A DNA stretch of 64,000 nt from Pseudomonadota bacterium (GTDB taxonomy: Bacteria; Pseudomonadota; Gammaproteobacteria; Pseudomonadales; Azotimanducaceae). The notes under the pieces are model-generated. The model was not told where the DNA came from and did no database searches. It was given only the letters and a program-made list of their open reading frames with translations. Made by a program: the position numbers and the translations under genes. The DNA is taken from assembly GCA_027624035.1 (NCBI GenBank), contig JAQBUI010000004.1, positions 1-64,000 of the forward strand, in the 5' to 3' direction. Below, in pieces: positions 1 through 62,160 of this stretch; the first letter of the stretch is position 1; each line of letters begins with the position of its first letter.

Positions 1-25
1 CACTGGTACAAGGTGCCAGCGTGAA

Positions 26-74
26 CACTTCCCTGCACGACAACGGCGTGGCCGACCCGGGCACGCTGAAGGCT
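26..74 (+). repeat. Dispersed structured intergenic repeat, copy A (partial)
   Basis: The segment ACTTCCCTGCACGACAACGG followed by CGTGGCCGACCCGGGCACGCTGAAGGCT matches the right half of the roughly 90-bp element seen complete at 32177-32266, 33191-33280 and 62010-62101. The left half is degenerate or absent here. The CACG...CGTG core of the second hairpin is retained. The rest of 1-248 shows no convincing gene. Confidence 0.6.
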
Positions 75-248
75 CCTAACTGACTGAATCACGCCACGAC
101 TATGTCGCGGTGGTGTCGGATCAGGGACTGTGGCACGGTGCCGACACCTCCCGCAGCGCAGCCAGTCGATCTGTCCCTTGCCCTGATCGAGTGGGTTTCC
201 GGGCTACTGACAGTGACCGCCATAGTGCCCGCCATGAGACCCATCGTT

Positions 249-1856
249 TCATGGCATGGTCGGCTGACCAATGGTGATCCGTTGATCGGCTTGCAGCGTC
301 TGAATCGTCACCTCGCCATCGGGCCAGGTCACGGTGATTTCCGCTTCCGTTGCCGGGCCCAGGCCAAAGTGCACCTCATAGGGGTTGTGAGAAACGTAGT
401 TGTTGCTGCCACCCATCTCACGGGTCTGCCGCTGCCCGGTGGGAACCACGAGGGCGATGTGCGCGCCAATGCCGAATGTATTCATACCCGCACCCCTTAG
501 ACGAAGGGTCAGGAAGTGGTTGTCATTGTCCGAATCATTTCGATAGAGCACCAGGTGATCGGGGGAGTTATTGGTAATCAGTATGTCTATATCGCCGTCT
601 CGCTCCACATCGAAACAGGCGACACCCCTGCCCTGGCCGACGTCTGCAAGGCCAACCTCCACTGCCCGCTCCATGAATTCGCCGCCTCCCAGGCCATGGT
701 AGAACCGTACCCGGTCTGCGGTGAAATCGCCGATCGGCCCGTCGATCCAGCCGTTCACGTGAAAGATGTCCAGACGGCCATCGTTGTCGAAGTCGGCAGC
801 ACAGGCACCCCATCCCCAGCCGCCATTGGCCACGCCACCGGCCTCGGTCACGTCTGCGAATACCCCGTTGCCATCATTACGATACAGGCGATTGCCAAAC
901 CGCACGCCCCCGATGACATCCAGGTTGTAAATCGACGTCACAAACCAGTCCATGTCTCCGTCGTTGTCATAGTCGCCTACGGCCGCGCCCATCCCGGACT
1001 GATCCTTGATCACCTGCCGATCGGTGATCCTCGTAAACGTGCCGTCATCGTTGTTGCGGTACACCTGGCTCTCCTCGAAATCCGATACCATCAACAGATC
1101 ACCATCACCATCGTTGTCGATGTCGCTGAAGTTGGGCGTAAAGCTCCAGTCTGTGTCCAGCTCAACGAGGGTATCGGCTATTCCTGACTCGATGCTGGTA
1201 CTCGTAAATGTCAGGTCGCCGTTGTTGCGCCACACGGTCTCTGTATCTTCCCGGGGCTGGCGCTGCGTGCCCCAGTGGGCCAGAAACAGGTCAAGGTAGC
1301 CATCCTTGTCATAGTCGTAGCAGGTGGCCGAAATGGTCGTCTCCGCCGTCATCGAGATTCCCGAGGCCGTGGTGATATCAACGAACCGACCGTCACGATT
1401 CTCAAACAGGGCTGCGGCACCACCCTTGACGCTGCCAATAAAAAGATCAAGATCACCATCCCCATCGATGTCCCCGAAGGCGGGGCCACTGGCCCAGTTC
1501 ACAAGATCCAGCCCCAGATCAGCGCTGGTTTCTTCCAGGACGCCGCCTTCGTTGGCGTAAAAGTGATTCGGGTCCCGGTTGCCACCCACCACAAGCAAGT
1601 CCACAAAGCCGTTACCATCGACATCTGCCGCGGCCACACCACCACCCATGAAGCGTACCCTCTCGGCCTCCAGTTCTTCCGTATAGGGCCGGTTCAGCCT
1701 GCTTTCGCTGGTTCTAGTGAAGACGATGGCGTCATTGGTGGCAGGTGGGTCGTTGTTGACCGGGGGCGTGGGCGCCGGCGCCCGTGCTGAGCCACCACTA
1801 CCACCACCACAACCATAGACACTCAGGCAAACAATCAAGACAATGCATTGGTACAT
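249..1856 (-). CDS. CRTAC1-type FG-GAP/ASPIC lipoprotein
   Basis: Predicted outer-surface lipoprotein of about 535 aa. I chose the ATG at 1856 because it begins a compact lipoprotein signal (MYQCIVLIVCLSVYGC) followed by Gly/Ser linker; the track start at 2012 is a TTG that would put a long tail before the signal. The body is a run of FG-GAP/VCBS repeats with calcium-loop motifs such as DGDGDLDLFIG and DNDGDGDLL, which normally build a beta-propeller. The C-terminus has the UnbV/ASPIC module (GIGAHIALVVPTG, HFGLGPATEAEITVTWPDG). The family is common in marine and soil bacteria; its exact role is unknown, with adhesion or binding usually proposed. A clear paralogue lies at 11002-12693. No enzymatic residues are evident. 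Confidence 0.85.
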   Translation of the reverse strand: MYQCIVLIVCLSVYGCGGGSGGSARAPAPTPPVNNDPPATNDAIVFTRTSESRLNRPYTEELEAERVRFMGGGVAAADVDGNGFVDLLVVGGNRDPNHFYANEGGVLEETSADLGLDLVNWASGPAFGDIDGDGDLDLFIGSVKGGAAALFENRDGRFVDITTASGISMTAETTISATCYDYDKDGYLDLFLAHWGTQRQPREDTETVWRNNGDLTFTSTSIESGIADTLVELDTDWSFTPNFSDIDNDGDGDLLMVSDFEESQVYRNNDDGTFTRITDRQVIKDQSGMGAAVGDYDNDGDMDWFVTSIYNLDVIGGVRFGNRLYRNDGNGVFADVTEAGGVANGGWGWGACAADFDNDGRLDIFHVNGWIDGPIGDFTADRVRFYHGLGGGEFMERAVEVGLADVGQGRGVACFDVERDGDIDILITNNSPDHLVLYRNDSDNDNHFLTLRLRGAGMNTFGIGAHIALVVPTGQRQTREMGGSNNYVSHNPYEVHFGLGPATEAEITVTWPDGEVTIQTLQADQRITIGQPTMP

Positions 1857-2121
1857 CGGATCACCGGACGCAGCAGGTAGTCTGCTCTGGTCGCCAGTAT
1901 GACCAGCACGCGATGCAGGTGGATTCGGAAATCCGTAGCCGGTATTTCTAGAGAGCGTACGCAAGATTTGCAGATGCGCTTTAACCGCCCGGAGGATCGA
2001 ATATGAGTTCAAGGTAGTTATCGCGGAAGAGGCTTTAATCAGATATTCCCCAGTCTACAAAAAGAGTGATCGGGTTGACATTCAATCCCACGGAAGGCCA
2101 CTCATTGATCGAACCCTGGCT

Positions 2122-4414: not shown

Positions 4415-4437
4415 CGGCATGTCTCAGGCATGCCGCT
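4415..4437 (+). terminator. Possible weak hairpin after haloperoxidase gene
   Basis: CGGCATG and CATGCCG form a 7-bp stem with a short loop just after the stop codon, followed by CTTT. The T-tract is poor, so this is at best a weak terminator. Confidence 0.3.
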
Positions 4438-4665
4438 TTGTGCAAGAAAGTTGCTCACCTGGCGCCTCGTATCAGTGATCTTCCATCAAGGTCTCGATCG
4501 GACCCGCCAGATCGTCTGCCATCCGATTGACCTGTCCGACACCTGTCGAGGGGCAAGCCACGGGTAAGTTAGCTTTCAGTGATATCCCGGATTGCCGTGT
4601 TGATTACCAAGGGAGACATGGGCAGGACAGTGTAGAATCGCCGATTCCCGGACAGGCCTTATACC

Positions 4666-24013: not shown

Positions 24014-24154
24014 CGCCCGATCGGAGAGTCCTGGCAGCGATTCACACGGTACCGGTCGTGCGCGGTCGCCCAGGCAACTTTTTTGGTGTCTAGGGCATCG
24101 TGGGGCGATCCCGGTGACTCAGGCTCAAAGCCCCGTGAATAGTCATGTTCCATG

Positions 24155-24320
24155 AAAACCCTGAGCGTGTCCGTGTCAGGACGCCGTAGTCGACTGGGAA
24201 CTTTCCCGACGGCACAGCGTAAGACCGGAACGTCCATGAACGGCATGAGCGTGCCCGCATCAGGGCACACCGTAGTCGTGCGGAGAAGTATCCTGTAGGA
24301 CTGACCTTCCATCAAAGGTC
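24155..24320 (-). repeat. Dispersed structured intergenic repeat, copy B (tandem, degenerate)
   Basis: Two adjacent copies on the minus strand, about 24155-24240 and 24241-24320, recognisable by CGACTACGGCGTCCTGACAC and GCACGACTACGGTGTGCCCT. The second copy keeps a GCACG/TGTGC hairpin around the ACTACGG loop. The block fills the spacer between the convergent quinone reductase and FkbM genes and abuts the FkbM stop codon. Confidence 0.6.
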
Positions 24321-32163: not shown

Positions 32164-32176
32164 CGGGCACACTCTG

Positions 32177-32266
32177 GGCTGTCATGGAAGTTCCGGTCCT
32201 ACACTGTGCGAGCCTGGGACTTCCCGGTACGACTACGGCGTACCTGACACGGGCACGCTAAGGGCT
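32177..32266 (+). repeat. Dispersed structured intergenic repeat, copy C (complete)
   Basis: 90 bp. Hairpin 1 pairs GGAAGTTCC (32186-32194) with GGGACTTCC (32216-32224). Hairpin 2 pairs GGTACG (32226-32231) with CGTACC (32239-32244) around an ACTACGG loop. It lies between the convergent CDF and protease genes. Copy D is the same length and lies inverted on the other side of the protease. Confidence 0.75.
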
Positions 32267-32267
32267 G

Positions 32268-33116
32268 CTAAGCGGCCTCACAGCCGTTGCCGGCATAGTT
32301 GACCAGATGCAGCGCATCCAGGCTCAACCGGGGGCCCATCACGTTCTGCCTGAAATAGGGGCTGACGTATGACGTGACGGTGAACACCGTGGAGAGCCCA
32401 AGCCAGGGTGACCCGCTACTACCCTTACCGAGGGGATTGTTTTCAGAACCGATGAGGCCATCTTCGGCAATGAACGTCGGCACATCCAGTTCCAGCATGC
32501 GCCGACCCTCAAAGTAGTTGTTAGCGTAGCCAACCAGCTTGACCTCGTCAGGTGGCTGACCGTTGGTAATGCCAAGGCTGCCCGCCTGGCTGTTGCGCGT
32601 GGCGCGCAGAAACGCGTAATCGTACCGATAAAGACTCTGGTCCGAGAGGGCGCCCCAGTTCGCGGGTGCGGCAACACACTCGATGGCGAACACGTCCTGT
32701 CTGTCGGTACCGTACGCCCGAATGAACAGAAAATCCCTGTTCCAGTCCCCTTCGAGACTCATCACACAGTGGGCGGCCGTAAGAATCAGGTCCGCTCGGC
32801 CCGCGAATGCGCCCGAGCAGGTGGCCACCTTGCCATCGGGCCGGGTAAAGAACAGCCGTCCGGCAGCGGAATAGGGCAGCTGACCAAAATCGGTGACTTC
32901 ACTGATGCCACTGTTGAGGTCAAGAAAGCTCTCGTCGCTGACGCCAACCCCCATGGGCAACAGGGTCTGGGCGAGAATCAGATTCGGTTTGAGCCGGATC
33001 CACAGCATGCCGGTTCGAAGCTGGTTCTTTTTTGAGAACTTGATGCTGAGGTAATCGTCGCCCTCGGCAGAATTCGGCATGAACGATATTGCCAGGCACA
33101 ATGCCAATCGAGTCAT
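32268..33116 (-). CDS. Secreted trypsin-like serine protease
   Basis: About 282 aa. ATG 33116 (MTRLALCLAISFMPNSAEG) gives a clean Sec signal peptide; the track TTG at 33167 does not. The S1 catalytic triad is visible: His in DLILTAAHCVMS (about residue 118), Asp in YRYDYAFLRA (about 166) and Ser in GKGSSGSPWLG (about 233). Extra cysteines flank the His loop (ATCSGAFAG, AAHC), consistent with a disulfide. The gene is bracketed by two inverted copies of the dispersed structured repeat. It is presumably periplasmic or secreted, and its target is unknown. The DNA shows no obvious compositional oddity. Confidence 0.82.
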   Translation of the reverse strand: MTRLALCLAISFMPNSAEGDDYLSIKFSKKNQLRTGMLWIRLKPNLILAQTLLPMGVGVSDESFLDLNSGISEVTDFGQLPYSAAGRLFFTRPDGKVATCSGAFAGRADLILTAAHCVMSLEGDWNRDFLFIRAYGTDRQDVFAIECVAAPANWGALSDQSLYRYDYAFLRATRNSQAGSLGITNGQPPDEVKLVGYANNYFEGRRMLELDVPTFIAEDGLIGSENNPLGKGSSGSPWLGLSTVFTVTSYVSPYFRQNVMGPRLSLDALHLVNYAGNGCEAA

Positions 33117-33190
33117 CAGATTCAGTATCGACGAATACGATCCCCTACCTTTCCCTGGCTGCGACAATTCCAGACAGCATACTCCAAGGA

Positions 33191-33280
33191 GCCCTCAGCG
33201 TCCCCGGGTCGGGCACGCCGTTGTCGTGCCGGGAAGTTTTCCGGACGGCACCGTGTGCGGCCAGAACTTCCATGAAAGCC
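33191..33280 (-). repeat. Dispersed structured intergenic repeat, copy D (complete)
   Basis: 90 bp on the minus strand. Relative to copy C, hairpin 2 reads GGCACG/CGTGCC around ACAACGG, a compensatory double change that keeps pairing. Hairpin 1 is GGAAGTT/AACTTCC. It is an intergenic copy upstream of the protease gene. Confidence 0.75.
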
Positions 33281-33384
33281 TGATTGGTTACCCACTTGAG
33301 AACCCGGACCGGCTACCAACGGTAGAGGCACCCATCATTTGCGCCTAAGATAGACGAATTCAACCCGGAACGCGGAACGATCAG

Positions 33385-62009: not shown

Positions 62010-62160
62010 GGCTTTCATGGAAGTTCCGGTCCTGCACAGTGAGAGTCCTGGATACTTCCCGGTACGACTACGGCATCCCTGATACGGGCACGCGCAAGGC
62101 TGCTGGTGGACCACACGATACAGTGGCACGCCTGACACGGACACGCTGATGGCTTTCAGG
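62010..62160 (+). repeat. Dispersed structured intergenic repeat, copy E (one complete plus partial)
   Basis: 62010-62101 is a complete copy (GGAAGT...ACTTCC first hairpin; GGTACG second-hairpin arm with degenerate partner). 62112-62160 is a right-end partial copy (CCTGACACGGACACGCTGAT). The block fills most of the 354-bp spacer between the PhyH and crotonase starts. Confidence 0.7.

Follow-up and report, generated by a model that had tools for sequence, protein, structure and literature searches.

A dispersed two-hairpin repeat of about 87 nt in Azotimanducaceae, probably a REP/RPE-like mobile element, with in-frame copies inside genes of one genus

What kind of sequence is the intergenic repeat at position 32,177, and which of its possible hairpins is conserved? 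The window, the whole 64,000-nt stretch analysed, is C78:1-64000 of a 4.81-Mb draft genome of 171 contigs. A first-pass annotation described a repeat family there, with a hairpin GGYACG/CGTRCC whose arms seemed to change in compensation between copies, and read it as a selected structure in a REP-like or small-RNA-like element. Copies were confirmed in sequence at the places it listed. The repeat unit is about 87 nt long, occurs singly or in tandem, and is dispersed through the source genome. The window contains the following features:

1..76, plus strand: copy truncated by the contig start (covariance model, 60.1 bits)
4420..4493, minus strand: degenerate or weak copy, absent from the earlier list (nhmmer, 27.5 bits, E 3.7e-7)
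24154..24242, minus strand: copy, member of a tandem pair (covariance model, 65.9 bits)
24244..24319, minus strand: partial second unit of the tandem pair (nhmmer, 40 bits)
32176..32269, plus strand: full copy containing the annotated hairpin (nhmmer and covariance model, 96.7 bits)
32186..32226, plus strand: hairpin 1 of that copy, outer stem GGAAGT/ACTTCC (sequence; cross-species covariation)
32226..32244, plus strand: the annotated hairpin, GGTACG/CGTACC (own family only, not conserved in related families)
32238..32258, plus strand: hairpin 2 of the same copy, GCGTACC/GGCACGC with one mismatch (sequence; cross-species compensation)
33188..33281, minus strand: full copy of the dominant subtype (covariance model, 107.1 bits)
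62010..62103, plus strand: full copy (covariance model, 84.5 bits)
62120..62157, plus strand: partial copy, 3' end only (nhmmer, 21.4 bits)

The 32176..32269 copy is flanked by a cation-efflux gene and a convergent gene (Pfam). No Rfam family matched in the window at its gathering score. The best weak match, AS1726 (32286-32338, plus strand, 26.8 bits against a cut-off of 50), lies outside the element in the 3' end of a trypsin-like gene and is probably a chance hit. None of the papers searched describes the repeat.

The proposed dispersed family was borne out genome-wide: blastn with the 32177 copy as query gave 69 matches, and a covariance-model search at least 150 copies. Within 803 kb of sampled contigs nhmmer detected 63-65 copies, which extrapolates to roughly 350 in the genome, some of these contigs being already known to hold copies. 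Several contigs start inside a copy (the window at 1-76, and C39, C83, C42, C125, C68 and C103 of the same genome). As draft contigs often start within copies, assembly probably fails at the repeat, and the actual number of copies is probably higher. The unit consists of a left end CTYY-CAT, hairpin 1, the linker CGNCNRCGG, hairpin 2, and a right end CTNARGG followed by CTYY (consensus approximately CTTTCAT-GGAAGT...ACTTCC-CGGCA-CGACWACGG-CGTGCCYGACMCGGGCACG-CTSARGG-CTYY). Tandem units mostly repeat every 86-87 nt, with both lengths mixed. Multiple subtypes exist, and the dominant one has identical 83-nt cores at loci with no common flanking 13-mers, which points to recent spread.

The window copies do contain, as sequence, the annotated pair GGTACG/CGTACC versus GGCACG/CGTGCC, but its covariation is not above chance. 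Across 82 distinct copies of the own family the arm combinations were T-A 2, T-G 7, C-A 8 and C-G 55 (Fisher p=0.36); the C/T and G/A states are thus unassociated, and the quoted compensation is at chance level. The hairpin is paired in 86% of its own family and in 50-52% of three related families, where it is lost, against a null of 57.5% with arms exchanged across families. On alignment A3 it is 68.9% paired versus 65.6% after shuffling (48 of 500 shuffles at least as high) and is not clearly separable from the shuffles. Its 3' arm doubles as the 5' arm of hairpin 2 (consensus GCGTGCC/GGCACGC), and the two hairpins compete.

Hairpin 1 is paired in 73-90% across four families, versus 59% with arms swapped between families; for hairpin 2 the values are 59-98% and 56%. 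Jointly on A3 they are 88.1% paired versus 72.9% shuffled (0/500 shuffles), with a covariation of 0.334 versus 0.124 (0/500; slid maximum 0.15). Because hairpins 1 and 2 beat the shuffles and the annotated hairpin does not clearly do so, they are the conserved structure. The earlier claim of a selected structure was therefore right in substance but cited the wrong hairpin as evidence; the stem GGAAGT/ACTTCC, which it also reported as kept, does covary across species. Arms in the cross-species test were set solely by distance from the common linkers, since RNAalifold gave no consensus structure for 64 own copies, probably owing to misaligned subfamilies. The folding of a single copy is not unusually good (z -0.34 and -0.03).

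The two-hairpin model matches 20 of the 151 genomes of the family, patchily, in 8 of 37 genera. Behind weak full-length matches in the congener G002 and in G012 stand distinct high-copy families of identical layout, with at least 43 and at least 45 copies respectively. Own sequence versions are also found in G116, G120, G087, G153, G135 and others. Matched records include APA_bin_45 (G002), OX638346.1 (G087), RHO1_bin_43, COS4_bin_29 and Ca. Azophilus lithoversatilis, the last of which NCBI assigns to Ca. Azotimanducaceae, Pseudomonadales. The related families are homologous but diverged in sequence, with the architecture kept.

Some versions show local peculiarities. The single-contig chromosome matched to OX638346.1 has a tandem array of four units spaced at 90 nt (G087:C1:979235-979598), which lends itself to checking arrays independently of assembly. 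Ahead of several G002 copies (L145, L147, L169, L175) lies a common TAATGAAACAAG-like sequence, which may be a longer variant or what is left of an upstream unit. In the only strong copy of G022 (L094 ~1575-1640) the right end is repeated as 21-nt tandem units, ACGCTGATGGCTCCTTTACAG.

Comparison of close species bears on how copies come and go. Just one empty site is clean, in G012 versus G120 (L231 vs L284), where AATGGG-[87 nt]-CTCCTCTCCC stands against AATGGGCTCCTCTCCC, a gain of exactly one unit, 87 nt, 5' of CTCC. L159 and L265 have a net difference of 87 nt and are consistent in length, while the L226, L233 and dnaE sites are consistent with insertion but have diverged too far to fix its exact ends. 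Between species, arrays vary by whole units (2 vs 1, 3 vs 1). Left ends start CTYY-CAT, right ends run into CTYY, and little is conserved beyond. The simplest reading is insertion directly 5' of CTYY, each unit bringing its own CTYY so that units can stack. A single site could just as well have lost a unit: precise recombination between GGCT direct repeats would produce a scar identical to that of the clean empty site. Presence or absence at orthologous sites, together with identical recent copies at unrelated sites, is the general mark of a mobile element, and both are seen here.

In genomes of genus g7 the element interrupts conserved genes in frame, among them essential ones such as dnaE and murD. 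The reading frame is always GSTPPATGGxPALPxASAVGEAPPAEGS, the sole domain-supported one, which gives a Pro/Ala/Ser-rich linker peptide. Copies lie in genes for DnaE, a CaiB/BaiF racemase, an amidohydrolase, a biotin carboxylase/carboxyltransferase and an FAD-binding protein; zipA carries two units. The murD copy is found in both G012 and G120, which are independent assemblies, and so is a sulfatase copy. Alignments to solved-structure sequences leave an unmatched stretch at the element, of 35 versus 5 residues in the racemase, 38 versus 14 in DnaE, 41 versus 7 in the amidohydrolase, and 91 versus 2 in MurD, where 15-residue sibling repeats add to the element. Surface loops apparently tolerate the linker peptide. 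Rickettsia palindromic elements have been described as behaving in this way. The sibling repeat in G012 is 45 nt long (CTCTTCTGCGAGGGGTATCCCCCTCGCGCTCCCCGGCTGAAGG; L237 ~1642-1780, minus strand; L230 ~1587-1865, plus strand). It shares the right end of the element, stands in tandem beside the 87-nt unit, and is in frame in MurD with 15 residues per unit.

We read the repeat, with a probability of roughly three in four, as a non-autonomous, REP/RPE-like mobile palindromic element of about 87 nt, in other words selfish DNA. A unit would insert singly, immediately 5' of a CTYY site, and as it begins with CTYY itself, further units could be gained or lost there, which would produce the 86-87-nt arrays. 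Each host lineage has amplified its own sequence version with both hairpins and the linkers retained, which argues that selection acts on nucleic-acid structure. The selected form would most simply be single-stranded DNA, recognised during spread by a trans-acting recombinase or transposase, although the searches for a mobilising enzyme found none. Copies persist between genes or, in g7, inside genes as a tolerated linker peptide. A host function is unnecessary to explain the element.

Could the enzyme be a RAYT, as in classical REP/BIME systems, where a genome-encoded Y1 HuH protein would cut single-stranded hairpins and paste units beside CTYY/RRAG? The own genome does have three different Y1_Tnp (RAYT-like) genes (L059, L060 and L061, on C54, C117 and C152), one RAYT gene has a partial copy ~330 nt away, and insertion beside a short motif with no obvious target duplication would suit such a mechanism. 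The element also resembles GTAG REPs and BIMEs as a high-copy, mainly intergenic hairpin repeat for which single-stranded mobile DNA has been proposed. However, Y1_Tnp was undetected in G012, a 100% complete genome with at least 45 copies, and in G116 (99% complete), and 16 Y1_Tnp/RAYT loci had no flanking elements save one partial and one marginal (L061); an obligate role as mobiliser was not supported. The conserved unpaired GTAG tag is likewise absent, the reverse strand having GTAG/GTTG in the own family and CCGCTGTCG or CCGCTGACG elsewhere. Finally, the tandem units are head-to-tail, whereas BIMEs are head-head or tail-tail dimers. Mobilisation by a RAYT is therefore unlikely, though it fares best among the alternatives.

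The placement of copies bears on another alternative, that the hairpins work at the transcript level, as structured RNAs or elements of mRNA processing; small RNAs and 3'-end stabilisers would be examples. All 59 sampled copies of the own genome are intergenic versus 11.7% expected (codon-usage gene call made here), confirming the suspected intergenic bias; in G120 39 of 51 are (13.8% expected), with four inside called genes. A coding role for own-genome copies was rejected: none lies in a called gene, and the mixed 86/87-nt periods argue against one frame. Intergenic location, cross-species covariation and one invariant-type G.T pair in hairpin 2 would fit an RNA. Yet copies show no orientation preference relative to flanking genes (own genome 9 same and 7 opposite; G120 5 and 11), and divergent intergenic regions are well populated. 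Counts of G.T against A.C, an indirect probe of whether selection acts on DNA or RNA, show no G.T excess in the outer stem of hairpin 1 (19 versus 22). With the in-frame genic copies and the lack of an Rfam match also against it, a role in transcripts is improbable. The REP-like part of the original proposal stands in substance; the small-RNA part finds no Rfam family, orientation bias or G.T excess behind it.

Origin as a MITE of a conventional DDE insertion sequence, sharing its terminal inverted repeats, is very improbable: the element is indeed short, non-autonomous and dispersed, but its ends are direct (CTYY...CTYY) rather than inverted, the empty site is a plain 87-nt gain lacking a clear target-site duplication, the sampled contigs yielded neither a parental insertion sequence nor an autonomous partner whose matching split ends lie 0.25-4 kb apart, and the element is absent from the phage and plasmid collections searched and, by pattern search, from viral contigs.

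The mobile palindromic element favoured here is close in several respects to the RPE/CGTC-REP superfamily (PMC3733652; PMC10969869), which also comprises short palindromic repeats in lineage-specific families of many copies, with in-frame gene insertions including dnaE and no dedicated transposase known. Di Nocera et al. likewise found none for CGTC REPs (PMC3733652). In-frame insertion of the RPE type was seen in G012 and G120, and in none of the 59 own-genome copies. CGTC REPs are defined by a CGTC (or TGTC/CCTC) tag, an 8-9 bp stem starting with A-T pairs, a 4-5 nt loop and a CCA tail (PMC3733652). By contrast, the element here repeats head-to-tail as a fixed 87-nt unit with two hairpins in a row, carries a CGNC tag (CGTC in g7 and G116; CGAC in G002 and the own family), and has a gammaproteobacterial host. 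In g7 and G116 the CGTC tag precedes hairpin 2, but stem and tail misfit, as the CGTC-AT stem and CCA tail are lacking. The element thus does not fully fit the GTAG-REP, CGTC-REP or MITE definitions.

A more specific reading, towards which the balance tips only slightly, is that these are family-wide protein-coding palindromes in a group other than Rickettsia: a two-hairpin unit able to form tandems, spread 5' of CTYY by some enzyme, diversifying by compensatory change in each lineage, and supplying the same 29-residue linker (plus the 15-residue sibling) repeatedly to essential proteins of g7 such as DnaE, MurD and ZipA.

One lesson is that, where conservation lies with an alternative hairpin, compensatory change in two or three copies can be due to chance. 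Rickettsia is the best-known source of in-frame 'protein-coding palindromes'; here homologous, diverged versions occur in several related genomes of one gammaproteobacterial family. Because close species differ in presence or absence and in unit number, the insertion target, the enzyme and the tolerance of the proteins are directly testable.
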